The notes: generated from the sequence alone by a model not told the origin. A stretch of DNA of 64,000 nt from Alphaproteobacteria bacterium (GCA_017539265.1 JAFYHG010000030.1:67878-131877); one strand, 5' to 3'; positions 4,776-41,667 are shown, counted from the stretch's first letter. Numbers and translations are program-made.

Positions 4776-6478
4776 TGTTTCCAATTGTTTCTATAATTAT
4801 TCCCTGTTGTAATGCCCAAAAGTATTTAGAACAATGTTTGGATTCGGTCATTTTACAGACGTTTAAGGATATAGAGATACTGTGCATTGATGATTGTTCC
4901 ACCGATGAAACAAATTCAATTTTGAAGCAATATACCCTTAGGGATCATAGAGTTAAAATTATTTCATTAAACGGCGGTTATGGTACGGCTTCTTTAAAAA
5001 ATCTGGGATTAAAAAAAGCAAAAGGGAAATATATTTTGTTTTTTGATTCAGGTAATTTTCTTGAAAAAGATATGACTGAAAAATTATATTTCCAAGCGGA
5101 GAAAACAGGGGCAGATATCACTTTTTGCGGGTTTAATTGTTTTGATGACTGTGCGGAAAAAGCTCAAAACATAAATTGGGATATTAATCAAGGACTTTTG
5201 CCGAAACAAGATGTTTTTTCTTTGAAAAAAAGTGCAGCGAAGTTATGGAATTTAATCCCTCCTTTTACGGAAAATCAACTTTATCGACGAAAATTTTTAA
5301 TCAAAAATAAATTATCTTTTAAAAATATTAAGAGTTTTTATGATACTTATTTTACCAAACTGGCTTTCCTATTGGCCGGAAAGATTAGCTATGTCAATGA
5401 AAAATTAATGTATTATCGTATCAATCATCTTTCTGGTGGCATTAATCAGAAATCATATCTTGATGTCATTCGTATAATTTATGCCCTTCATTCATTTTTA
5501 TCAAAGGATAAAATTATTAAGAAATATCAAAGGCCTTTTTTTGAATGTGCGTTGTATATGATGGAAAGGACATTAAAAGGAGTTGGACCTAAACACGATT
5601 TATTACGTTCTTTTTATCTTAAATCACTCATTCCTAAGTTTTGGGGTAATTCTCAGATACCAAACGGCTATCCGCTTTTATTAGGGCTTGATACCATTAC
5701 TGATGATTTTAAACGTTTCTTTTCCCATGATAAAGGACACCTTATTCCTATTGTTTTTGCCACAGATAAGGTATCCGCTCCCAGATTGGGTGTTACTATT
5801 GAGTCGATTAAAAAGAATAAAAATTATTTTTATGATATTTATGTATTGCATGAAGACTTATCATCCGCTATGCAATTTAATCTATCGGGTTTATCTGAAG
5901 AAAATATCCGCGTGACGTGTGTAAACGTTTCGGATATGATTGAGAAGTATTTTCATAAAAATTTTATAAACCCTTTATTATATCGTTTTTTGATTCCGGA
6001 ATTATTTACCGAATATGAAAAAATTCTTTATTTAGACATTGATGTCTTGCCGCAGGAAAATTTTGAAGAAATTTTTAATCTTGATTTAGGGAAACAAGCT
6101 GTAGCGGGTATAAAAAAAGATGTAGATGAAATCTATGTGCGTAGCATACTTAATATATTGCCTTATTCTTTTATTGATTCCAGGATATTATTATTTAATG
6201 TCCCTATTTGTCAAAAAATGAATTTGATGAAACGTATAGCAATAAATATTTCGCTCTTTGACCAGATGGCATCTCCTGCAGATGATATCACAAATATTTT
6301 ATTCCGAAACGGCAGGATGATTTTGGATGAAAAGACGGGTTCTCTTTTTGATGTCGATACATTTAAACAGTGGTTATGCCTTTTGGAATTTCCGGTTCCA
6401 AAATGTTGGAAACTGGCCCGAGAATCATCTTTTTATGAAACTCTTCTCTGTCAGGTTCAGAAAGGAGAGATTGAATGA
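4775..6478 (+). CDS. Fused GT2-like + GT8 glycosyltransferase
   Basis: 567 residues in two domains. Residues 1 to about 230 are a GT-A family 2 domain, starting VSIIIPCCNAQKYLEQCLDS with the CIDDCSTDET nucleotide-binding stretch. Its DXD position reads DSGNF (residues 91-95) rather than DSDDF. Residues about 325-567 form a GT8 domain (IPIVFATDKVSAPRLGVTIES...) with an intact ILYLDIDVLP. So the GT8 half looks catalytic while the GT2 half has lost its second metal ligand. The start overlaps the previous stop and the end overlaps the next start (ATGA), so all three enzymes are made together. Likely role: assembling a cell-surface glycan. Confidence 0.8.
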   Translation: MFPIVSIIIPCCNAQKYLEQCLDSVILQTFKDIEILCIDDCSTDETNSILKQYTLRDHRVKIISLNGGYGTASLKNLGLKKAKGKYILFFDSGNFLEKDMTEKLYFQAEKTGADITFCGFNCFDDCAEKAQNINWDINQGLLPKQDVFSLKKSAAKLWNLIPPFTENQLYRRKFLIKNKLSFKNIKSFYDTYFTKLAFLLAGKISYVNEKLMYYRINHLSGGINQKSYLDVIRIIYALHSFLSKDKIIKKYQRPFFECALYMMERTLKGVGPKHDLLRSFYLKSLIPKFWGNSQIPNGYPLLLGLDTITDDFKRFFSHDKGHLIPIVFATDKVSAPRLGVTIESIKKNKNYFYDIYVLHEDLSSAMQFNLSGLSEENIRVTCVNVSDMIEKYFHKNFINPLLYRFLIPELFTEYEKILYLDIDVLPQENFEEIFNLDLGKQAVAGIKKDVDEIYVRSILNILPYSFIDSRILLFNVPICQKMNLMKRIAINISLFDQMASPADDITNILFRNGRMILDEKTGSLFDVDTFKQWLCLLEFPVPKCWKLARESSFYETLLCQVQKGEIE

Positions 6479-28422: not shown

Positions 28423-29343
28423 ATGAATACGCAAATTATCGGGCAAAAAGACTTGGTCCAAAAGTTGCTTTTGGCCCTTTTAAGTGACGGGCATTTATTG
28501 GTGGAAGGGTTACCGGGATTGGCAAAAACAAAGGCAGTGAAAGTCTTATCCGGAACAATTGATTCGGGTTTTCAACGGATTCAGTTTACTCCCGATTTAT
28601 TGCCTTCTGATATTACGGGTAGTGATGTCTATCGCCCGGAAGTTAACATGTTTTCCTTTAAAAAAGGACCTATTTTTAACAATTTGATCTTGGCTGATGA
28701 AATTAACCGTGCACCGGCAAAAGTTCAATCTGCACTTTTAGAAGCCATGGGAGAACGTCAGGTTACGGTAGGGAATGAAACCTATCGCCTACCGGATTTG
28801 TTCATGGTTATGGCAACCCAAAACCCGATTGAGCAAGAGGGAACCTATAACCTTCCCGAAGCGCAATTGGATCGGTTTTTGATGTATGTCAAAATTGCCT
28901 ATCCTGACGTGAATTCCGAACGCTTGATTTTAAAATTGGTCCAGGGCGAAGAAAAGAAACTTCCGCCGCCGGATTTTGAAAAGATTAAGCAAGATGAGAT
29001 TTTTGAAGCCCGCCAAGAAGTTTTGGATACTTATATGTCGCCGGAACTGGAAGAATATCTTGTTCAATTTGTTATGGCAACCCGTCATCCCGAAGCCTAT
29101 GGGGAAGATATGGCAAAATTGCTGCAATATGGCGTCAGTCCCCGTGGTACAATCGCGTTGGATTTGGTATCAAGAGCCAGTGCTTGGCTTTCGGGGCGCG
29201 ATTATGTCGTTCCCAAAGATATTCAAAATGCCATACCGGATGTTTTGCGCCATCGGGTTATTCTGTCGTTTGAGGCCAAATCGGCCCGCTTAACACCGGA
29301 TGACGTTTTGAATAAGTTATTGGAACGGGTACCGTTACCGTAA
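28423..29343 (+). CDS. MoxR-family AAA ATPase, N-terminus possibly frameshifted
   Basis: 306 residues from the first in-frame ATG, which lacks a Shine-Dalgarno. The Walker A region is VEGLPGLAKTK, Walker B is LILADEINRAP, and sensor 1 is in MATQNPIEQEG. MoxR ATPases act as chaperones, usually with VWA partners. Upstream in the same frame the codons read IELQNY, which belongs to the family N-terminus, but the good ribosome-binding site and ATG at 28382 are one base out of frame. Followed by DUF58 and DUF4381 genes as in other moxR operons. Confidence 0.92.
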   Translation: MNTQIIGQKDLVQKLLLALLSDGHLLVEGLPGLAKTKAVKVLSGTIDSGFQRIQFTPDLLPSDITGSDVYRPEVNMFSFKKGPIFNNLILADEINRAPAKVQSALLEAMGERQVTVGNETYRLPDLFMVMATQNPIEQEGTYNLPEAQLDRFLMYVKIAYPDVNSERLILKLVQGEEKKLPPPDFEKIKQDEIFEARQEVLDTYMSPELEEYLVQFVMATRHPEAYGEDMAKLLQYGVSPRGTIALDLVSRASAWLSGRDYVVPKDIQNAIPDVLRHRVILSFEAKSARLTPDDVLNKLLERVPLP

Positions 29344-29353
29344 AGGGGGAAAC

Positions 29354-30265
29354 GTGGCCGAAGAATACAGCCCTGTTTCTGTTGATGAATTAAGCCTGCG
29401 GGCCTTGCGTTTGCAGACACATGCGGTTGTTATTGAAGATTCCAAAAAGCAGGCTTACAGTAACACAGGGACTTCTAACTCTCCTTTTCGGACAAGGGGA
29501 TTGGATTTTCAAGAGATTCGTGCCTATCAACCCGGTGATGACGTTCGCCAAATTGATTGGCGTACAACAGCTAAGCACGGAAAGCCCTTTACAAAGCTCT
29601 ATACGGATGAAAAGGAACGTCCCGTTTATTTTATCTGTGATATGCGTTCACGGATGAAGTTTGCCAGCCACGGGGATTTTAAATCTGTCGTGGCGGCCCG
29701 AATGACGACTTTTTTGGCATGGTTGGTGGAAAAGAAAAAAGACCGTATCGGATCTGTTATTTTGATGCCGGATCAACTTAAATGTGTTGATTTGAAAGGA
29801 AATCGGGGTGTGAACGGTCTGATAGCGGATTTGGTAGCCGCCGGAACGCCTGATCCCGGTCAACCTGATCAAACAACTCTGGAGCAAGCCTTTATGTCTT
29901 TGGCACGAGGGGCAAAAAACGGGGCTATGATTTTTATTTGTAGTGATTTTAGTGATTTGACCCCTGAATCTTTGCAGGTTTTAAGTCGCCTCAGTACCCG
30001 TCGGACGTTGGCTTTAATTCATATCTATGATGAAATGGAAGCCCAAATGCCTTACGGTTTTTGGAATATGACCGACGGGAATCAAACGGCAAGTGTAGAC
30101 ATGACCAATCGGTCCGTTCGGGAATCTTTTGAAAAACCGTTCGCCGAGAACTTGGCAAAATTAAAAGAAACAATCGAGCATAACGGATGGGGATATTTAT
30201 CCGTCAAAACAACGGATAATTATTTGGAAAAATTGATGTCATATGTAAGGGAGGGATCAATCTGA
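29354..30265 (+). CDS. DUF58 domain protein
   Basis: 303 residues with a GTG start ten bases after moxR (GGGG upstream). The DUF58 signature is clear: TRGLDFQEIRAYQPGDDVRQ, then IDWRTTAKHGKP. The C-terminal half is a Rossmann/VWA-like fold (FICDMRSRMKF, IFICSDFSD), where metal-site residues are partly visible. DUF58 proteins accompany MoxR ATPases; their biochemical role is not established. The stop overlaps the next start (TGATG). Confidence 0.92.
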   Translation: MAEEYSPVSVDELSLRALRLQTHAVVIEDSKKQAYSNTGTSNSPFRTRGLDFQEIRAYQPGDDVRQIDWRTTAKHGKPFTKLYTDEKERPVYFICDMRSRMKFASHGDFKSVVAARMTTFLAWLVEKKKDRIGSVILMPDQLKCVDLKGNRGVNGLIADLVAAGTPDPGQPDQTTLEQAFMSLARGAKNGAMIFICSDFSDLTPESLQVLSRLSTRRTLALIHIYDEMEAQMPYGFWNMTDGNQTASVDMTNRSVRESFEKPFAENLAKLKETIEHNGWGYLSVKTTDNYLEKLMSYVREGSI

Positions 30266-30759
30266 TGGTTGATTTATCGGGGCTTCGTGATATTCATATC
30301 CCCAAGGAACCACCTTGGTGGCCGCCGGCCCTCGGATGGTGGTTGGTGCTGGGCGGGATTATTATTGCCACACTTATCGGTGTATTCTTTTTCTTTCGGT
30401 GGTATAATCATCCTAAGCAATTTGCACTTCGGGAGCTTAAAAAGATGCATCTCGAAATACCTAATATCGTGTTATTGGCCAGATCTGTTTCCTTATTATT
30501 AAAACGCATTGTTTTAATTCAATATCCGCGCTCAAAAGTTGCCACTCTTACCGATGAAAAATGGGTGGATTTCCTTATTAAAAAGACGGGAAATGCTTTT
30601 TCCGCTTCTCAATTAGATTTGCTGTCGCAGGCAACCTATATGCCCGAAAAAAATCTTCCGGCCGAGGATTCGGCAGATTTATACCGGGCAGCACGAACAG
30701 CCGTTATAAAACTTTTTGAAGGAAAACAAAATGGAAACAAAAGCACAAAGTCTTCATGA
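30265..30759 (+). CDS. DUF4381 single-pass membrane protein
   Basis: 164 residues. The N-terminus LRDIHIPKEPPWWPPALGWW is the DUF4381 signature, followed by one membrane helix (about 28-50) and a cytoplasmic helical domain. It normally sits between a DUF58 gene and a VWA (BatA-like) gene. Here no VWA gene follows; the next gene is a WYL-TerB protein. It overlaps the DUF58 stop by one base. Confidence 0.88.
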   Translation: MVDLSGLRDIHIPKEPPWWPPALGWWLVLGGIIIATLIGVFFFFRWYNHPKQFALRELKKMHLEIPNIVLLARSVSLLLKRIVLIQYPRSKVATLTDEKWVDFLIKKTGNAFSASQLDLLSQATYMPEKNLPAEDSADLYRAARTAVIKLFEGKQNGNKSTKSS

Positions 30760-31522
30760 AGCCATCGCTATGCTCAACCAAGGTCGTCAATTACCTTTGG
30801 CCGATATACAAACACCGCCACCACCGCCGAGTATTAAAGGTATTATGGATGGTTCCCAAGAAACAAATGCAGGCATATCATTGTTGGTTTCTATTAGATA
30901 TCGTTCTTTGTCCGATCATTTGAAAGATCGTGATGTTTTAATTCGACGGGTTATTCGCAATAAAAATGATTTGTATTTAGATGGTGTTGCCATGGATATT
31001 CGGGCACCTCGTTTAATTAAAGTAGCTCATATTTTAGAAATTCGGGATATTACTTCGGGTCGGGTTTATCAAGATCCTTTGGAGTTTATTGAAAATCGGC
31101 TGGGTGTTTCTTTACCTAAAACCCGGGTAAAAAAAGAGCCCAAAAATGAATTTCCGAAGGTAATAGAACGCACGGCACAAGAAATGACTGCCCTTATGTA
31201 TTTGGTCGCCATCGATGGTCAGCGTGATACAAGGGAACGAAAAGTTGTTTTTGATTATATCAAATCCAGAACCCTTGATTTAACTTATCCGGACACGGAT
31301 TTAAATGAATACTTGATTTCTTTGGCTCCCGATACGGAAAGTTTTTCGGTTGCTTTGGGGCAAATTCTGAAGAAAGAAAAGGATGTTGTTCAAAGGTTTA
31401 TAGAAGCGGTTTTGGATGTGATTATGATTGACGGTAAGGTTGATCCCCGCGAGCGCAGTTTTCTTGTCCGGTTAATGGATGTTTTGGAAAAGGACGGTTA
31501 TGAAATCACACTCCCGATTTAA
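30731..31522 (+). CDS. WYL-like plus TerB-like two-domain protein
   Basis: 263 residues from the ATG at 30731 (AAGGA upstream), overlapping the DUF4381 gene by 29 bases. Residues about 50-130 look like a WYL domain (IRYRSLSDHLKDRDVLIRRV, YLDGVAMDIRAPRLIKVAHI), a ligand-binding fold. Residues about 150-260 look like a TerB-type helical domain with two acidic motifs, YLVAIDGQRDTRER and VIMIDGKVDPRER. Both are by-eye matches. In place of the usual VWA genes it may be the effector or sensor of this MoxR system. Confidence 0.65.
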   Translation: METKAQSLHEAIAMLNQGRQLPLADIQTPPPPPSIKGIMDGSQETNAGISLLVSIRYRSLSDHLKDRDVLIRRVIRNKNDLYLDGVAMDIRAPRLIKVAHILEIRDITSGRVYQDPLEFIENRLGVSLPKTRVKKEPKNEFPKVIERTAQEMTALMYLVAIDGQRDTRERKVVFDYIKSRTLDLTYPDTDLNEYLISLAPDTESFSVALGQILKKEKDVVQRFIEAVLDVIMIDGKVDPRERSFLVRLMDVLEKDGYEITLPI

Positions 31523-32713: not shown

Positions 32714-33883
32714 ATGAGTCAAAAAAACGCAATCGTACGTTTTGTTTTGGAGCAGAAAAAATCGGCCGAAAAAGTGTCGACTGTTTTGGTGCGTATCTTA
32801 AAAAATAAAAAAACTTCAGATAATTTTTTGCATACCGTTATTCAAAATCCCCGTGATAATAAGGCTGCTTATCGCTTCTTTTGCAATTCTTTTAAGACCG
32901 CTACCGAACGGCGGCGGTGGTATGAGAATTATTTAGATGTTTATACCCGTTTTATGAATGCCCAAATGCGGTCGGCTAGCTGTATTGAAGATATGTTAAA
33001 AATTGTCCCTAATTTATCCCCCTGGACATTGGAACAGCGCTTTGAAACCATAAAAATCGGTTCAATTCCGCCTGCCTTTGTATCAGAGCTACATTTTATT
33101 TCATTACTGGCAAAAATTAATCGGTCAAGCGCTGTTACCCGATTTAAACAGATTAAGCGTTTAGAATGTCATCTATCTGATTTTCGGGCTGCTTTTCCCG
33201 AAGTTAAAAAAATAGATTGGTTTAATTTATCTGCCCGATCCCGTTTTTTAGGTCAGTTAATGCATGAAAAATGCGGTACCCCTTTTATTGTAAAGCAGGA
33301 TGGTCGCGCTTATCAAATTACCTTTTTGTGTAATCCGTATTCCAATAAAATGGTTTTTAAAGTTCAATCACCTGAAAAAGAAACCTTTATTTTAAAATTA
33401 AGTCCTTATTGCTTTTTGACTACCCCAAATGATCGTGTGCGCAAAGAGCATGAAAATATGGCCATTCGGGCAGATTCAACTTATTCGGATGCCTTGTTGG
33501 AATTTTATTTAAAATTGAACGATTGCCCGCATGCTCCTGATATTTTGTATTACCATTTTAATCATGAGGTTGCTCTCTATCGCGCCGCACAGGGAAAACC
33601 CTTCCACTCAGGGAAAAATAAAAACAAATATTTGGATTTTTACTCTTTTAATACCAAGGTTGTTTCCGATTCTATGCGCTTAGGTGTTTACGTCAATGAT
33701 ATTAATGCGGGCAATTTTTTAGTTTCAAAAGAGGATGGCTTTGTTAAAATTATAGATATCGGGCACGCTACATTTGTAAATCCTTTAACGCCCGAAGTTC
33801 CCGGCTTAACCTTTACCTTAGGTAATTTATGTGGCCGAGATTATATTTCCATAGCCGGTGTTTTGGAGGTTGAAGATGACTGA
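32714..33883 (+). CDS. Protein-kinase-like fold protein of unknown function
   Basis: 389 residues with no signal peptide. The N-terminal 190 residues are helical and unassigned. The C-terminal half carries a spaced kinase signature: FILKLS with Lys228 (VAIK-like), Glu245 in RVRKEHENMA (C-helix), VYVNDINAGNFLV with Asp329 and Asn334 (the D-x4-N catalytic loop), and KIIDIGHATF with Asp348 (DFG-like). The distances Asp329-Asn334-Asp348 fit the protein-kinase or small-molecule-kinase fold. No family is recognised. The stop overlaps the next start (ATGACTGA), coupling it to the PHP-GH77 enzyme, so a target in alpha-glucan metabolism is plausible. Confidence 0.65.
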   Translation: MSQKNAIVRFVLEQKKSAEKVSTVLVRILKNKKTSDNFLHTVIQNPRDNKAAYRFFCNSFKTATERRRWYENYLDVYTRFMNAQMRSASCIEDMLKIVPNLSPWTLEQRFETIKIGSIPPAFVSELHFISLLAKINRSSAVTRFKQIKRLECHLSDFRAAFPEVKKIDWFNLSARSRFLGQLMHEKCGTPFIVKQDGRAYQITFLCNPYSNKMVFKVQSPEKETFILKLSPYCFLTTPNDRVRKEHENMAIRADSTYSDALLEFYLKLNDCPHAPDILYYHFNHEVALYRAAQGKPFHSGKNKNKYLDFYSFNTKVVSDSMRLGVYVNDINAGNFLVSKEDGFVKIIDIGHATFVNPLTPEVPGLTFTLGNLCGRDYISIAGVLEVEDD

Positions 33884-36503
33884 TGCACTATATTTAAAAG
33901 CGTTGGCTAAAGGGTTAAACATTCAAGATACAAAATCCCTTTCCGTCATTATGGGACCGGATGAATTAAAGAAAACATTATCGGGGCTTACGCTTAAAGA
34001 TTTTGATGATGGTCGGCGGCTGATTACCCTGCATACGCATACAACGGCCTCTGACGGGCGGGTTGAGCCCAAGGATTATTTGGATAATGCCCTTAAATTT
34101 AAAAATAAATACGGATATCAGGAGTTGATATTGGCTGTGACAGACCATGACGACCTGTCGGGTTTGCCGATTATCCTTAAGAAAGCACAAAAAAATCCCG
34201 AAAAATATCGGGGCATACGCTTGGTTTTGGGTTGTGAACTCAGTGTCGCTTTGTTTGACGACAGGACTTTTCGGCCGGTTGATTTTGAACTCTTGCACTA
34301 TGGGATTAATCCGTTTGATAAAACGTATCAAAAGTGGCTTAAAGACCTTTGTTCGTTGCGCCAAAAGATGATACCTAAAATTTTTGATTATTTCCAAAAG
34401 AAGTATCCGTGGGTTCATTTTGATATGAATGAATTTTTTGGTATATATCCTCAAATGAAGAAGGGATTCGGGTGTTATCTGACATACAGCACACCGCGGT
34501 ATATTATCGGGAAATTAAATGATGCTTCTCAAAATGAATTTGTTTGGGATTATTTTCGGCGTCTTGGAACACCTTTTTCGGAAACACCGGATGTACCTTT
34601 TTGGCATACATTAGATGACGTAGTGAAACGCTTGAAACAACACGGTTTCGGATTTTTAAGTATGGCCCATCCTTATCGCGTGCATTTAGAGGGAAAAATT
34701 CGTGAATCCGGTATAGATTTTTTAAATTACTTTTTGAACGTGTTAAAACAAAAAGGTGTTGCCGGATTGGAAATTTTTTATATGAACTTGTATCAACCGC
34801 TTGCAAGGTCTTTTGATTATATGTCAAAAGGTTGTTCTCCGATTTCCGATACGGATAGATGGGTTAAAACCTTTTTGGATTTTGCCGATCAAAACGGTAT
34901 GATAAAAACCGGCGGTACGGACAGTCATTCTGATTTCTTGGCCGGTCGTAAACGGGAATTGACGATTCGCCTGACGGAATTATTGGATAATTATAAACCT
35001 CTTATTCGAGAAGGGTATCAAGTTTTGAATAAAGAGGTAACCTTGGGTATGCCGGCACCGTGTATGCCGCCCGAAAGTGCTTATCGGGATACGGGTATCG
35101 GTTCGGATGCGGGGGAAGGGGCCACGCGAATTGCCCGGTTCTTTGGCGGTCTTTTTGATAAGATACAATTAGGGCCTATGGGACGCACAATGCGGGAGGC
35201 CAAGCATTCCCCTTATGTGTCCGATATGGCACCTAACCCGTTTTTTATTCCGCTTGAAAAACTGGCAGAAAAGAATCTGATTTCTTCTAAAACACTGGAT
35301 GAAATTTATCAAATCCCCAAGCAAGACGGTTTTATCGATTTTGATATTGTCGAAAAGGTTTATGATAAAGCCCTTCATGAAGCGTATAAAACGTGTAAAA
35401 CTAAGAAATCATACGATTCGTTTGTTGCGGATTTATATAATGCTTGTCATCAAAAGTTACCCGCTAAATATATCGCCGATTTACAGGTGCGTATTCCCCC
35501 CGATACCAAGGGGTTGAAGCCGGATCTTTTCCTGTCCGATTATTCGTTAGGGGCGCCCCCGGATGCATTTTCTGCTTCGGCGCGTAATTGGCATTTTTCC
35601 GTATTTGACCCTAAGAAAGTATTTAATCCCGACGGTACATTGGGGCCGGCGGGAAAAGTGTGGCAAAGTTTATTGGATACAGCCCTTCAAAATGCGGCCG
35701 GCGGGCTTAGGATCGATCATTATATCGGCTTTGTCAATCCCTTTGTAATTTCAAATAATGATCCTGCGGATTGTGGACGGCTTTATTCTTCCGGTGATCA
35801 TCCGAATTTGAAAGCATATCTTAAATCTGATTTTTCGGATATTACGCGAAAAATTATTTTGGATACGGTGCAAAAACATGGTCTCACCCAACGGGATATT
35901 TATGTGGAAGATGTCGGGAATAGGCCGTTTGAATTGGATCCCGTCATGCGGGAATGTGGGCTCGGTAGGCTTCTTATCGCACAATTTTTGGAACCGGATG
36001 ATTGGAACCATATGTATCATTTATCGCGGGCCGGTGCAGATGATGTAGCGGTTTTGGATACACATGATACGCCTTCCATCCAAATGTTCTTTGATTCGCT
36101 TCCTGAAGATAAAAAAGCCAAATTTTCATGGATTTTGGCCATGGATTTGCGGTTTAATTATACGGATGAATTAAAGTCCACCACATGGCTGACCCGCATG
36201 ATGTGGGGGGCATTGATGGCTTCACCCGCCCAACGTGTTCAAGCCTTTTTCACCAGTTGGACCGGTCAAATCGGTCGTTATAATCAACCGGGAAATCCTG
36301 TTAAGTGGCATTTAAGGTGTGTGGCCGATTTTGAACGGCTCTATTTTGAAAATTTGGCGCGTGGCCTTGCTTATAATCCCTTTGATGCTATAGCCCTTGG
36401 TATTTATGCGCGTGGGGATGAATTCTATCGCAACCATGAAGATTTGGTGAAGCGTCTGCGTGCAGCCGAAGAAGAAATTTTATCTTTGGCACGGGAACTT
36501 TAA
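33876..36503 (+). CDS. PHP phosphoesterase domain fused to GH77 4-alpha-glucanotransferase
   Basis: 875 residues from the ATG at 33876 (GGAGG upstream). Residues about 48-360 are a PHP domain with metal ligands in TLHTHTTASDG (His53, His55), VTDHDD (90-93), LGCELSVAL, SMAHPYRVH and GGTDSHSDF. Residues about 405-875 match GH77 in order: LGPMG and SPY near the start, GAPPDAFSASARNW, GLRIDHYIGF (nucleophile Asp), IYVEDVGN (acid/base Glu), and VLDTHDTPS (third catalytic Asp). GH77 enzymes move alpha-1,4-glucan segments. The join is uninterrupted in one frame. Coupled to the kinase-like gene before it and 84 bases before glgB. Confidence 0.88.
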   Translation: MTDALYLKALAKGLNIQDTKSLSVIMGPDELKKTLSGLTLKDFDDGRRLITLHTHTTASDGRVEPKDYLDNALKFKNKYGYQELILAVTDHDDLSGLPIILKKAQKNPEKYRGIRLVLGCELSVALFDDRTFRPVDFELLHYGINPFDKTYQKWLKDLCSLRQKMIPKIFDYFQKKYPWVHFDMNEFFGIYPQMKKGFGCYLTYSTPRYIIGKLNDASQNEFVWDYFRRLGTPFSETPDVPFWHTLDDVVKRLKQHGFGFLSMAHPYRVHLEGKIRESGIDFLNYFLNVLKQKGVAGLEIFYMNLYQPLARSFDYMSKGCSPISDTDRWVKTFLDFADQNGMIKTGGTDSHSDFLAGRKRELTIRLTELLDNYKPLIREGYQVLNKEVTLGMPAPCMPPESAYRDTGIGSDAGEGATRIARFFGGLFDKIQLGPMGRTMREAKHSPYVSDMAPNPFFIPLEKLAEKNLISSKTLDEIYQIPKQDGFIDFDIVEKVYDKALHEAYKTCKTKKSYDSFVADLYNACHQKLPAKYIADLQVRIPPDTKGLKPDLFLSDYSLGAPPDAFSASARNWHFSVFDPKKVFNPDGTLGPAGKVWQSLLDTALQNAAGGLRIDHYIGFVNPFVISNNDPADCGRLYSSGDHPNLKAYLKSDFSDITRKIILDTVQKHGLTQRDIYVEDVGNRPFELDPVMRECGLGRLLIAQFLEPDDWNHMYHLSRAGADDVAVLDTHDTPSIQMFFDSLPEDKKAKFSWILAMDLRFNYTDELKSTTWLTRMMWGALMASPAQRVQAFFTSWTGQIGRYNQPGNPVKWHLRCVADFERLYFENLARGLAYNPFDAIALGIYARGDEFYRNHEDLVKRLRAAEEEILSLAREL

Positions 36504-36587: not shown

Positions 36588-38834
36588 ATGGGACTTATTT
36601 TAGAATCATCACAGGTTGAATCATTGGTCAAAGGTAACTATCAAGGTGATCCGTTTGCCGTTTTGGGCATGCATCAAGGGCAGAATCTTGAGGGTAAACA
36701 ATCCCTCTATATCCGCACTTTGCAGCCGCAGGCCAAGAAGGTTGAGGTTATTCGTATCGATACTGGTGCGAATTTAGGGGAAATGCGTCGCGTCCATGTT
36801 TATGGACTATTTCAAATGGATATGACGGATGAGCTTTCCTTTTTTCCGTATCGTTTTAAAATCACGCTTTATAATGATCAGGTTTATGAAGCCGAAGATG
36901 TTTATCGCTTTTTGCCGGTTCTGGGGGAATTGGATTTATACCTTTACGGCGAAGGTAATCATATGCAAATTTACCAAAAGTTGGGGGCGCACCTGATAAC
37001 CCATCAAGGAGTAGAAGGCGTTTCTTTTGCCGTTTGGGCACCCAATGCCAAAAGGGTAAGTGTCGTCGGTCTTTTCAATGATTGGGACGGTCGGCGTCAT
37101 ATGATGCGTCCGCGTGGCAGTTCCGGGATTTGGGAATTGTTTATTCCGGGGATGAAAGAGTGGGATATTTATAAGTATGAACTCATCGGTGCCCAAGGTC
37201 GTCTTATGCCGCTTAAATCCGACCCATTCGGCTTCGCCTTTGAAATGCGCCCCAAAACAGGGAGTCTTGTGTTTAACGGCGGTCGTTATCAATGGTCGGA
37301 TGCCGATTGGATTCAAAACGGTCGGGCAAAGGCCAATGCGCTGGCTTCTCCGATTTCTGTTTATGAAGTGCATTTGGGATCATGGCGGCGTAACAGTTTG
37401 GAAAATAATCGGTGGTTGACCTATCGTGAAATGGCGCGTGAACTTCCCGAATATATCAAACAAATAGGTTTTACTCATGTAGAGTTTTTACCTCTGGCCG
37501 AGTATCCTTTTGACGGCAGTTGGGGATATCAAATCACGGGGCTTTATGCGCCGACAAGCCGTTACGGTACGCCGGATGATTTTAAATATCTGATTGATGA
37601 ACTGCATCGGGCGGGTATCGGTGTTATTATGGATTGGGTACCGGCTCACTTCCCGCGGGATGCGTTCGGTTTGGCCGATTTTGACGGAACGGCGCTTTAT
37701 GAGCATGCAGATCCGCGTAAAGGCGAACACAAAGATTGGGGCACAAAGATTTACAATTATGGTCGTAAAGAGGTTTCTAATTTTCTAATTGCCAATGCTC
37801 TTTTCTGGGTGAAGGAGTACCATATTGATGCCTTGCGTGTAGATGCGGTGGCCAGTATGCTCTATTTGGATTATTCCCGTAAAGATGGTGAATGGATCCC
37901 CAATCAATATGGTGGCCGTGAAAATTTGGAGGCAATTGCCTTCCTGCGCCGTCTGAATGAAGTTGTCTTTGCCGAAGGGCAGGGGGCAACCACTTTTGCC
38001 GAAGAATCAACCGCTTGGCCGATGGTGTCGCGCCCGACCTATGTCGGGGGATTAGGGTTCGGTTATAAATGGAATATGGGGTGGATGCATGATACGCTTC
38101 ATTATATGTCCGAAAATCCAATCCACCGGAAATACCATCACAATGAATTGACGTTCAGTTTGCTTTATGCTTTTTCGGAAAACTTTATTTTGCCGCTGTC
38201 CCATGATGAAGTGGTGCATGGTAAAGGCCCAATGATAGATAAAATGCCCGGTGATATGTGGCAAAAATTTGCTAATTTAAGGCTATATTACAGTTATTTA
38301 TTTACTCACCCGGGTAAAAAATTGCTCTTTATGGGGGATGAATTTGCTGTTCGGACCGAGTGGCGTTTTGCCGACAGCTTAGATTGGGGGCTTTTGAAAA
38401 AAGAACGCCATCGGGGTGTCCAAAAAATGATATCTGATTTAAATGCCCTCTATAAAAAGACACCTGCGCTTTATGAAAATGATTTTGAATCCGGCGGGTT
38501 TGAGTGGGTAGAGGGTAATGATTACGAAAATTCATGCTTTACCTTTATTCGCCATGATAAAAAGAATAATGAATCACTGGTAGTGGCTTGTAATTTCACG
38601 CCCGTCCCACGATATAATTATCGTATCGGTGTAAATGAATCGGGTATCTATCGGGAAGTTTTCAATTCTGATTTAAAAATTTATGGCGGTTCCGATGTGA
38701 AGAATGAAGGGGATATCCAAACGGAAGAACCCGGTTGGAATTTTAAAAAGTATGATATTCAAGTCGTATTGCCGCCGCTAGCTGTTGTTTGTTTTAAACT
38801 GGATTGTATGGGGATTAGTCGAAAGAGGGAATAA
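36588..38834 (+). CDS. glgB: 1,4-alpha-glucan branching enzyme
   Basis: 748 residues, usual for GlgB with its N1 and CBM48 domains. It makes alpha-1,6 branches in glycogen. Visible marks are DPFAVLGMH at the start, SFAVWAPNAKRVSVVGLFND in the CBM48, the GH13 barrel with YEVHLGSWRR, DWVPAHFP, ALRVDAVASM (nucleophile Asp), FAEESTAWP (acid/base Glu) and LPLSHDEVVHGK. The next gene starts immediately after the stop. Confidence 0.97.
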   Translation: MGLILESSQVESLVKGNYQGDPFAVLGMHQGQNLEGKQSLYIRTLQPQAKKVEVIRIDTGANLGEMRRVHVYGLFQMDMTDELSFFPYRFKITLYNDQVYEAEDVYRFLPVLGELDLYLYGEGNHMQIYQKLGAHLITHQGVEGVSFAVWAPNAKRVSVVGLFNDWDGRRHMMRPRGSSGIWELFIPGMKEWDIYKYELIGAQGRLMPLKSDPFGFAFEMRPKTGSLVFNGGRYQWSDADWIQNGRAKANALASPISVYEVHLGSWRRNSLENNRWLTYREMARELPEYIKQIGFTHVEFLPLAEYPFDGSWGYQITGLYAPTSRYGTPDDFKYLIDELHRAGIGVIMDWVPAHFPRDAFGLADFDGTALYEHADPRKGEHKDWGTKIYNYGRKEVSNFLIANALFWVKEYHIDALRVDAVASMLYLDYSRKDGEWIPNQYGGRENLEAIAFLRRLNEVVFAEGQGATTFAEESTAWPMVSRPTYVGGLGFGYKWNMGWMHDTLHYMSENPIHRKYHHNELTFSLLYAFSENFILPLSHDEVVHGKGPMIDKMPGDMWQKFANLRLYYSYLFTHPGKKLLFMGDEFAVRTEWRFADSLDWGLLKKERHRGVQKMISDLNALYKKTPALYENDFESGGFEWVEGNDYENSCFTFIRHDKKNNESLVVACNFTPVPRYNYRIGVNESGIYREVFNSDLKIYGGSDVKNEGDIQTEEPGWNFKKYDIQVVLPPLAVVCFKLDCMGISRKRE

Positions 38835-39653
38835 ATGCAGGTCAATTTAGAAGATAAAGTTGTTCGTTTCGTTGTTCAAGAATATGTGAACGCTATTGTG
38901 AATTTTAAAAATCAAGCCGAACTTGATTTTGATACCCACAAATTAATTCACACGTTTCAGGTTGTCGCCGTTGCACAAAAATTGGTTAATTTGGCGCGTC
39001 CAAAATTATCCTTAAAATTAGCGCGTCAAATTTTAAATGCGGCGGTTTTACATGATGTCGGTCGGTGCCATGAATTTGAAAACGGAAAGCAAAAGAAACA
39101 CTTTAATCACGGCGTTGAAGGCTCTGAATTAATTAAGAAAAAATTCCCTAAATTTACTAAAGAATATTTGGCAACACGGCTTCATAATAAAGAGCCATCT
39201 GCCGCCGATCCGGTTGAGGCTCAACCCGTTTTAGATTATACGCGTGATGCCGATATTTTGGGAAATTTGGAATATAATATTGCTCAAATGCCGATTTTTT
39301 TAAAGCACATATTGCAACAATATCCGCAAACAGAAACAGCCATGATTATCAATCAGGAAATTCTTCGTTCGGCCAAGGAAAGGCATTCCTGTTGCTATCA
39401 GAAAATGGAAAAATTTGATTTTCTGGATATGATGTTGGCGCAACTGGCGTGGATTTATAATTTACGGACGCGCTCAGGTTTTCTGCTTTCCAAAAAGGAA
39501 AAGTTATTTCCGCGCTATCGGGAAGTTATTATTTCTGAGGTATTACCGATTATAAAAGGAACCCAAGCACAAAGAAAACGAACCGAAAAACAAATTAGAG
39601 AACTGTTCCCTGATGATATGTTTTTAGAGGAGTTTAAAAAGCATGGCGTATGA
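38835..39653 (+). CDS. HD-domain phosphohydrolase-like protein
   Basis: 272 residues. HD ligands are in the expected order: His39, VLHDVGRCHE (His73, Asp74), FNHGVEG (His92), LATRLHNKEP (His117) and DYTRDADILGN (Asp138/140). HD proteins hydrolyse nucleotides, cyclic nucleotides or phosphate esters; the substrate is unknown. The C-terminal 110 residues form an extra helical domain. It sits between glgB (no gap) and glgX (11-base overlap), so it is made with the glycogen enzymes and is probably part of their control. Confidence 0.85.
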   Translation: MQVNLEDKVVRFVVQEYVNAIVNFKNQAELDFDTHKLIHTFQVVAVAQKLVNLARPKLSLKLARQILNAAVLHDVGRCHEFENGKQKKHFNHGVEGSELIKKKFPKFTKEYLATRLHNKEPSAADPVEAQPVLDYTRDADILGNLEYNIAQMPIFLKHILQQYPQTETAMIINQEILRSAKERHSCCYQKMEKFDFLDMMLAQLAWIYNLRTRSGFLLSKKEKLFPRYREVIISEVLPIIKGTQAQRKRTEKQIRELFPDDMFLEEFKKHGV

Positions 39654-41667
39654 AGTATTGGGCGGGCTACCCTATCCGCTGGGGGCCAATTTTGATGGAG
39701 AAGGGGTCAATTTTGCCCTGTTTTCCGCCCATGCCGAACGGGTTCAGGTTTGCCTGTTTAACCGAAACGAAAGAGGGGAAGTTCGTATTGATTTACCCAA
39801 ATACACCGATGAAGTTTTTCATGGCTATATTAAGGGATTAAAACCCGGTCAACTCTATGGATACAGGGTTTATGGTCCCTATGAACCGGAAAAAGGGCAT
39901 CGCTTTAATCCGTATAAGTTGTTGATAGACCCTTATGCCAAAATGTTGACGATGCCGATTATCGGTCATAATTCTATGTTGGGGTATCGGGTTGGTGATG
40001 CAAGGGAAGACCTGTCGTTCAGTCGCCTGAATTCTGCACCTGTTGTGCCAAAGTGTGTCGTGTGTGCCGATGATGATTTCGATTGGGGCACTTTAAAAAA
40101 GCCGAAAAGCCCATGGGATTCCGAAGTGATTTATGAAACACATTTAAAGGGTTTTACGGCTCGCCACCCCGATATTGATGCGGAACTCAGGGGTACCTTT
40201 GCCGGTATGTCCACGCCGAAAGTAATTGAGTATTTTAAAAGCCTTCAAATTTCTGCCGTGGAATTATTACCGATTGCGGCTTTTATGACGGACGGATTTT
40301 TGTTGGATAAAAATTTAACGAATTATTGGGGGTATGATCCGATTGCTTTTATGTCCCCGCATGCCCTTTATCTGTCCGAGCGTAAATTGGCCGAATTGAA
40401 ACATATGGTTCGTGTTTTCCATGAGGCCGGTATAGAGGTTATTTTGGACGTTGTCTATAATCATTCCGGTGAAGGTAATCATATGGGGCATACTTTATGC
40501 TATCGGGGGATAGATAATTCGTCTTATTATCGGTTAAATAAGGAAAATCCCCGCTATTATGATGATACGACGGGGTGCGGTAATTCGTTAAATTTGGGGC
40601 ATCCGCGGACGCTTCAACTCGTGATGGATTCCCTCAGGTATTGGGCCAAGGTTATTCGTGTGGACGGTTTCCGATTTGATTTAGCCACAACCCTTGCCCG
40701 TAACAGTGATAACCAATATGCGATTAACAGTGACTTTTTAACCACCGTTCAGCAAGATCCGATTTTACAGCGTCAAAAATTGATTGCCGAACCGTGGGAT
40801 CTGGGGGTTGGCGGGTATCAGGTCGGCTCTTTCAGACCCGGATGGGCTGAATGGAATGATAAATTCCGCGATACTGTTCGCCGTTTTTGGACGGGTGCAG
40901 AAAATCAGGCCGCCGATTTTAAGAATCGCATGACCGGTTCGCCTGATCTTTATGATAAACAAGGTCGTAAACCATGGGAAAGCGTTAATTTTATTACGGC
41001 TCATGACGGATTTACATTACAGGATTTGGTGTCCTATAATCAAAAGCATAATGATGCCAACGGTGAAGATAATCGTGACGGATCGGATACCAATTACTCT
41101 TGGAACAGCGGTGTCGAAGGCGATACAAATAATCCGATTGTATCGGCTTTGCGGGAACGTCGGGCCAGATGTTTGATGGCATCACTTTTGCTTTCTTTCG
41201 GAACACCGATGATTTTAGGTGGAGATGAGGTTTTAACAACCGCTTTCGGTAATAACAATACCTATGCGCAAGATAACATTTATTCATGGATTAATTGGCC
41301 GGATGTCGGAGTGGTCGGTCAGCGAATGTATGATTTAGTCTGCCGGCTAATGCAAATTCGGCATCAATACACAGCCCTAAAACAGGATGATTTTAGAACC
41401 GGTTCCGATTTAATTTGGTATCGCCCTGATGGGGCACCTATGGAAAGTGGCGATTGGCATAGTTATGTCCGGGCACTTTCTTGTCGGGTTCAAGGGGAAG
41501 AAGATGCGCTCTTTTTTATCTTTAATGCCTATGATAAACCGTTGCCGTGGCGATTGCCTGATGGTAAGTGGCAGTTGATTTTAGATACGACAGATGAGGC
41601 TTCTTTTGCCCGTGGAAAAGGTTTTGCTCCGGCGTGGAGTGTTTTGGTTTTTAAACAAAAGGATTAG
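39643..41667 (+). CDS. glgX: Glycogen debranching enzyme
   Basis: 674 residues. GlgX cuts alpha-1,6 branches of limit dextrin. Marks: PLGANFDGEGVNFALFSAHA at the start (CBM48), VYGPYEPEKGHRFNPYKLL, DVVYNHSGEGN, RVDGFRFDLA (nucleophile Asp), IAEPWDLG (acid/base Glu) and NFITAHDGFTL. All catalytic residues appear intact. With GlgB and the GH77 domain it gives branching, debranching and disproportionation in one locus; glgA, glgC and glgP are not in the window. Confidence 0.96.
   Translation: MAYEVLGGLPYPLGANFDGEGVNFALFSAHAERVQVCLFNRNERGEVRIDLPKYTDEVFHGYIKGLKPGQLYGYRVYGPYEPEKGHRFNPYKLLIDPYAKMLTMPIIGHNSMLGYRVGDAREDLSFSRLNSAPVVPKCVVCADDDFDWGTLKKPKSPWDSEVIYETHLKGFTARHPDIDAELRGTFAGMSTPKVIEYFKSLQISAVELLPIAAFMTDGFLLDKNLTNYWGYDPIAFMSPHALYLSERKLAELKHMVRVFHEAGIEVILDVVYNHSGEGNHMGHTLCYRGIDNSSYYRLNKENPRYYDDTTGCGNSLNLGHPRTLQLVMDSLRYWAKVIRVDGFRFDLATTLARNSDNQYAINSDFLTTVQQDPILQRQKLIAEPWDLGVGGYQVGSFRPGWAEWNDKFRDTVRRFWTGAENQAADFKNRMTGSPDLYDKQGRKPWESVNFITAHDGFTLQDLVSYNQKHNDANGEDNRDGSDTNYSWNSGVEGDTNNPIVSALRERRARCLMASLLLSFGTPMILGGDEVLTTAFGNNNTYAQDNIYSWINWPDVGVVGQRMYDLVCRLMQIRHQYTALKQDDFRTGSDLIWYRPDGAPMESGDWHSYVRALSCRVQGEEDALFFIFNAYDKPLPWRLPDGKWQLILDTTDEASFARGKGFAPAWSVLVFKQKD

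Follow-up and report, generated by a model that had tools for sequence, protein, structure and literature searches.

A PHP-GH77 fusion and its probable kinase-fold partner in gut Alphaproteobacteria: a possible module for glucan transfer on phosphorylated sugar

Introduction

Why should a phosphoesterase domain be joined in one chain to an enzyme that moves glucan chains? The question is raised by a 64,000-nt stretch of DNA from an alphaproteobacterium (GCA_017539265.1, JAFYHG010000030.1:67878-131877; hereafter the window), in which a single gene encodes a PHP phosphoesterase domain followed by a domain of glycoside hydrolase family 77 (GH77). A preliminary description had proposed this fusion, with complete PHP metal ligands and all three GH77 catalytic acids, and had suggested that the PHP domain could remove a phosphate from the glucan or a regulator, or sense a phosphorylated ligand and gate the transferase. 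It overlooked a kinase-like gene, here called K, that overlaps the 5' end of the fusion gene, as well as the existence of a split form with three genes. We tentatively favour, at somewhat less than even confidence, a reading of K, PHP and GH77 as a three-function module in which K and PHP would add and remove a phosphate, while GH77 would move 4-alpha-glucan chains to or from the phosphorylated sugar.

Results

Two domains in one chain

Both domains of the fusion pass their Pfam cut-offs: GH77 (Glyco_hydro_77, PF02446) with an E-value of 1.1e-31 (110.7 bits against a cut-off of 25), and PHP (PF02811, residues 52-129) narrowly, with an E-value of 3.1e-6 (28.0 bits against 26.4). Equivalog models are far from satisfied: the fusion reaches 60.8 against a cut-off of 556 for NCBIfam MalQ and 33.7 against 205.65 for malQ TIGR00217, and its PHP half reaches about 37-38 bits with the RNase AM/RNM equivalogs, whose cut-offs are 375-400 (37.1 against 375). 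Both halves are thus divergent. An AlphaFold model (predicted local distance difference test, pLDDT, 80; predicted template modelling score, pTM, 0.68) recovers both folds in the PDB, namely Thermus amylomaltase 9u5l on the GH77 side (E 1e-12, template modelling score, TM, 0.67 by target) and Vibrio cholerae RNase AM 9etk on the PHP side (E 2e-9, TM 0.64), along with 3e0f and 2yb1. A PHP profile retrieves 9etk, 7ug9 and 2yb1.

The PHP residues H53, H55, D60, D90-H91-D92, E121, H265, D349 and H351 are invariant in six fusions, and the metal-ligand motifs that contain them (H53-T-H55, D60, T-D90-H91-D92, E121, A-H265-P, D349-S-H351) do not vary among 12 members, fused or split. The GH77 residues R612/D614, E678 and H730/D731 are likewise invariant in the six fusions. 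The metal-ligand set is complete, as had been described, and the three catalytic acids are D614, E678 and D731. HMMER aligns the His of the HIVG motif, found in the RNase AM clade, to an invariant E138 in the fusion PHP, in an uncertain register. Judged by these residues, both halves look catalytically intact, and 4-alpha-glucanotransferase activity is predicted for the GH77 half.

Ten or more independently assembled genomes carry the fusion, a recurrence that rules out an assembly or frameshift artefact. Its single reading frame, the Pfam and structural matches and this recurrence all bear out the one-chain architecture first proposed. A full-text search of the open-access literature found no paper describing a PHP-GH77 pairing, in keeping with the earlier remark that no characterised protein has it.

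A probable kinase-fold partner

The product of K belongs to no Pfam family; its best score is 12.7 bits with Pkinase, below the cut-off of 31.7 (a K homologue fused to another domain reaches 19 bits), and it gave no match to the maltokinase (Mak/Pep2) profile. Its AlphaFold model (pLDDT 85, pTM 0.87) finds kinase folds nearly throughout the Foldseek matches listed, the best being the UbiB/ABC1-like Rv3197 (E 4.6e-4, with a low TM of 0.28), and a K profile aligns to the catalytic loop of CK2 (E 0.005). The catalytic Asp, the Asn at Asp+5 and the DFG-type Asp are each present in 33/33 members of the K family, and the beta3 Lys in 30/33. The Lys at Asp+2 that marks Ser/Thr protein kinases occurs in just one K protein and is missing from the other 32, and in the 33 members the chain ends no more than 27-40 residues after the DFG-type Asp. 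These two features lean towards a small-molecule or atypical kinase rather than a Ser/Thr protein kinase.

Wherever a genome encodes both K and a PHP of the fusion type, the two genes are adjacent. One K gene (genome G018; L043, around 6185-6400) is broken near its 5' end, with in-frame stops and a match spread over two frames, beside intact PHP and GH77 genes, which may reflect either decay or an assembly error. A role of K in anti-phage defence was considered and rejected: there was no PADLOC match, and no K relatives occur in phage, plasmid or viral-contig records.

Co-inheritance and displacement of MalQ

Four states were observed among relatives: (i) K with the PHP-GH77 fusion (G000, G001, G020, G022, G005, G009, G418, G429, G430); (ii) K, PHP and GH77 encoded by three separate neighbouring genes that mostly overlap (G010, G018, G024, G007, G016, G023); (iii) a short GH77 alone (G012, G015, G026, G029, G031, G419, G420, G421 and the genomes of family f22); and (iv) a classical MalQ of 740 residues in a glgB-glgX-malQ operon (G002, G003, G006, G008 and others). 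K is absent where GH77 stands alone and also in G011, whose fusion has lost part of the PHP cap; K and PHP have nearly always been lost together.

The classical MalQ and the short GH77 are mutually exclusive, being found in 17 and 22, respectively, of the 39 GH77-bearing genomes and never both in one. GlgB is encoded in nearly all genomes with either GH77 type, and true GlgE in none of the 43 genomes of the family, with the positive control detected. The window comes from a 1.47-Mb genome of gut-type Alphaproteobacteria with a single GH77. There the K-fusion pair precedes glgB and malQ is missing after glgX, as against intact glgB-glgX-malQ operons in L054 and L140. Lying beside glgB and glgX and supplying the sole GH77 of the cell, the K-PHP-GH77 module has taken the place of MalQ in this organism.

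Related systems in Gastranaerophilales

When 84,980 species genomes were scanned with a GH77 alignment (a single-protein query returned nothing), the matches lay in gut and rumen Alphaproteobacteria and on one contig of Candidatus Gastranaerophilales (L103), an order of a different phylum, where the gene after K encodes the fusion in reverse order, GH77-PHP, of 1026 aa. In a second Gastranaerophilales genome (L134) the triad is split into separate genes for K, PHP and GH77. In a sample of this order, 285/286 genomes match the fusion query, those listed with a GH77 frame of 620-680 aa, and K-family proteins occur in 53 of the 286.

In some of these genomes K and PHP form a pair that does not include GH77, and its K is joined to a nucleotidyltransferase domain (PF00483; E 1.8e-8 and 8.4e-9), so that K-PHP is a unit in its own right. 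In L158-L161 the proteins with a nucleotidyltransferase and a K domain measure 880-930 aa and mostly lie beside a PHP gene, a second K-PHP system lacking GH77; a PDB search with a single such fusion gave only a chance antibody match. Elsewhere (L153, L154, L155) K-family proteins adjoin one or two iPGM genes and carry Thr where the beta3 Lys would be; these may be inactive or work differently.

Two further observations concern Gastranaerophilales. Beside the reversed fusion, a protein with calpain-like protease motifs, read by eye, is encoded at L103:9113-10579. Many of the K, PHP, iPGM and GH77 proteins of L103, L134 and L153-L158 begin with a similar stretch ending in an ISFK/ITFG-like motif, in some cases with what looks like a predicted membrane helix; this could be a targeting signal.

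In the GH77 tree, all short alphaproteobacterial enzymes are sister (support 97/88) to the two Gastranaerophilales triad enzymes, and the triad enzymes group with Gastranaerophilales GH77, far from the classical MalQ. The order of the K tree nearly equals that of the GH77 tree within the triad, so the genes have moved as a set. Because the branches of the PHP tree are long and weakly supported, its deep order was not used. The most parsimonious history starts from a split triad and calls for a single transfer between the phyla, two or more fusions, one of them in reverse order, and the loss of K together with PHP on several occasions; we infer the direction of the transfer from the nesting of the tree. 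The fusion itself is not essential, since the same proteins also occur unfused, it has arisen repeatedly and with either domain first, and in several lineages the short GH77 stands alone.

Substitutions at the acceptor site

When all GH77 columns were ranked by how well they separate K-bearing from K-less sequences, K810 came first and R570 second. Position 810 is Lys in 17/17 K-bearing and 1/27 K-less sequences, and otherwise Asn, Ser, Ala or Gln; position 570 is Arg in 17/17 and 2/28, and otherwise Gln, with one Thr. K810 forms the end of the gatepost (460s) loop. R570 replaces the canonical gate-loop Gln of the +1 site, a specificity feature that leaves membership of the family unaffected; its counterpart in the plant enzyme AtDPE1, Gln-336, contacts the +1 acceptor sugar (PMC4705983). 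Two added positive charges in the gate and gatepost loops, in two phyla, are what phosphate recognition near the +1 sugar would require. No Ser, Thr or Tyr column of the GH77 alignment was found that is conserved with K and relaxed without it.

The first interpretation is partly borne out: involvement of a phosphate, whether on glucan, a small sugar or a protein, is supported by the conserved, probably kinase-fold partner and by the K-linked Arg and Lys, but the fusion is dispensable.

Features and surroundings of the locus

Features of the window are collected in Table 1. An HD-domain protein is encoded between GlgB and GlgX, at 38835-39653, and is absent from that place in the same-genus operons L054 and L140. 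Upstream of the module, at 28423-31522, a MoxR ATPase, a DUF58 protein, a 164-aa protein and a TerB-like protein are encoded in a row that is not conserved beside the module in relatives. A scan for promoters and terminators gave signal no better than shuffled sequence.

Table 1. Features of the K-PHP-GH77 locus; coordinates are positions in the whole 64,000-nt window
Feature	Position	Strand	Basis or remark
K, probable kinase-fold protein, 389 aa	32714..33883	+	No Pfam family; 8-base overlap with fusion gene
PHP-GH77 fusion protein	33876..36503	+	Single uninterrupted open reading frame, 875 aa
PHP domain with N-terminal preface and large cap insert, residues 1-373	33876..34994	+	PF02811
GH77 domain, short atypical type, residues 374-875	34995..36500	+	PF02446, tree
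R570, gate (250s) loop, canonical Gln	35583..35585	+	
D614, GH77 catalytic nucleophile (GGLRIDH)	35715..35717	+	Invariant in alignments
E678, GH77 acid/base (YVEDVG)	35907..35909	+	Invariant in alignments
D731, GH77 transition-state stabiliser (DTHDT)	36066..36068	+	Invariant in alignments
K810, gatepost (460s) loop, canonical Asn (GNW to xKW)	36303..36305	+	
GlgB, glycogen branching enzyme, neighbour	36588..38834	+	NCBIfam NF003811, 1011 bits against cut-off 741
GlgX, glycogen debranching enzyme, neighbour	39643..41667	+	TIGR02100, 900 bits against cut-off 641

Discussion

How might the three proteins work together? In the scheme that we favour, K would phosphorylate a sugar or a short malto-oligosaccharide. 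The GH77, with Arg for the +1 Gln and Lys for the gatepost Asn, would take this phosphorylated sugar at +1, either as acceptor or as leaving group, as the two substitutions suggest. The PHP domain, to judge from its metal ligands and its RNase AM and nucleotide-bisphosphatase relatives, would dephosphorylate either the product or any phospho-sugar left over. What the sequences show directly is the domain architecture, the intactness of both active sites, the triad and its joint inheritance, the mutual exclusion between the short GH77 and MalQ, and the two substitutions; the substrate, the direction of the reaction and its biological purpose we infer from these features.

Several points weigh against glucan transfer on phosphorylated sugar. 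The substrates assigned to K, PHP and GH77 are all putative. R570 is kept in two K-less genomes (G011 and G015), the closest relatives of both being fusions. The sequences compared for the Arg/Lys pattern share ancestry: among phylogenetically independent pairs, 3/5 for R570 and 4/5 for K810 changed in the predicted direction and none in the opposite one, which is not significant. The two residues could serve domain contacts instead. One incomplete genome (G281) has adjacent PHP and GH77 genes on a 3-kb contig where K was not found. Finally, some K relatives lie beside iPGM genes and lack the beta3 Lys, so that K may have other roles.

The main rival, a serious one though less likely, is regulation at the level of the protein: K would be a protein kinase acting on GH77 or on GlgB or GlgX, with PHP as its dedicated phosphatase, and glucan remodelling would be switched on and off. 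PHP-fold protein phosphatases exist (CpsB/YwqE), the coupling in a fusion would suit a phosphatase bound to its target, and the partners of K vary (GH77, nucleotidyltransferase, iPGM) as if K regulated whichever enzyme adjoins it. However, the columns that discriminate K-bearing GH77 are Arg and Lys in substrate loops, with no Ser, Thr or Tyr tracking K; K has neither the Asp+2 Lys nor a full C-lobe; and the nearest relatives of the PHP act on nucleotides and RNA ends. An improbable case is that of an ordinary amylomaltase with a passenger, where PHP would have a housekeeping or sensory function, K would act elsewhere and the genes would merely travel together. A short GH77 alone in at least eight relatives and in family f22 does show that K and PHP are not needed, and the glycogen genes are present whichever GH77 type is used, but at least two independent fusions (one of them reversed), the disappearance of K and PHP together and the acceptor-site changes correlated with K are hard to explain by chance.

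Still less probable is a GlgE-like route on the GH77 scaffold, in which K would make maltose 1-phosphate or another sugar 1-phosphate, GH77 would transfer the glycosyl unit to a glucan with release of phosphate, or run in reverse as a phosphorylase, and PHP would clear surplus sugar phosphate. The new positive charges of the +1 and gatepost loops fit a need for phosphate binding, and GlgE and the retaining phosphorylases belong to the same clan as GH77. With GlgE missing from all 43 family genomes, nothing else would do its job; the same absence rules out the GlgE/maltokinase pathway as such. Against this route, the canonical GH77 nucleophile and acid/base are kept and ordinary transglycosylation fits equally well, K is not Mak/Pep2 by profile, and we know of no GH77 phosphorylase. 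In its favour, MalQ is known to supply Pep2 with maltose for GlgE (PMC11046441).

Returning to glucan transfer on phosphorylated sugar, a wider version can be drawn, possible but held with more doubt: a hitherto undescribed phospho-glucan pathway comprising a new kinase family, a GH77 tuned to phosphate at its +1 site (possibly a phosphorylase or a GlgE analogue) and a fused PHP phosphatase, which would have passed between Gastranaerophilales and the Alphaproteobacteria of the gut and ousted classical MalQ. In plants and animals much is known about the phosphate carried by glycogen and starch (glucan dikinases, laforin); to our knowledge, no bacterial kinase/phosphatase pair is bound to a glucan transferase. 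If true, the proposal would add to bacterial glycogen metabolism a definite phospho-sugar step open to experiment, find a role for a kinase family outside all Pfam models, and provide an instance of GH77 active-site charge shifting as a kinase is gained and lost.

Comparison with known systems

The fusion GH77 resembles MalQ/DPE1 amylomaltase (EC 2.4.1.25) in its fold, its catalytic Asp-Glu-Asp and its gate and gatepost loops. It differs in being very divergent, in the changes from +1 Gln to Arg and from gatepost Asn to Lys, and in the attached PHP, and within its family the short GH77 stands in for the classical MalQ of 740 aa. The PHP half shares with RNase AM/RNM (YciV, TrpH) and the 3',5'-nucleoside bisphosphate phosphatase 2yb1 the PHP fold, the HxH..D, TDHD, E, AHP and DxH elements and the cap insert; unlike in RNase AM/RNM, the cap is longer and there is an N-terminal preface. 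The window genome also encodes a separate RNase RNM-like protein (L004).

As for phosphorylated acceptors, the kinase AcbK makes acarbose 7-phosphate, which the GH77 enzyme AcbQ elongates (PMC10146171), a natural precedent for GH77 use of a phosphorylated acceptor. The point of likeness is a GH77 whose oligosaccharide substrate has been phosphorylated by an accompanying kinase, the kinases being matched by role only; that system, as described, has neither PHP nor fusion and belongs to secondary metabolism. Some Actinobacteria couple MalQ with Pep2 and GlgE (PMC11046441). The Pep2/Mak maltokinase with GlgE likewise pairs a kinase with an alpha-glucan transferase, but GlgE occurs in 0/43 family genomes and K matches no maltokinase model. 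GH77 is joined to another protein in the GlgB-MalQ and GlgX-MalQ fusions (Neisseria suica, PMC11046441; NCBIfam NF011082), where the partners are glucan enzymes and not a phosphoesterase. The individual folds are known; the PHP-GH77-K combination, the K family and the linked change of the acceptor site look undescribed; the K-linked charges at the +1 site of these gut-bacterial GH77 enzymes suggest a glucan pathway that works on phosphorylated sugar.

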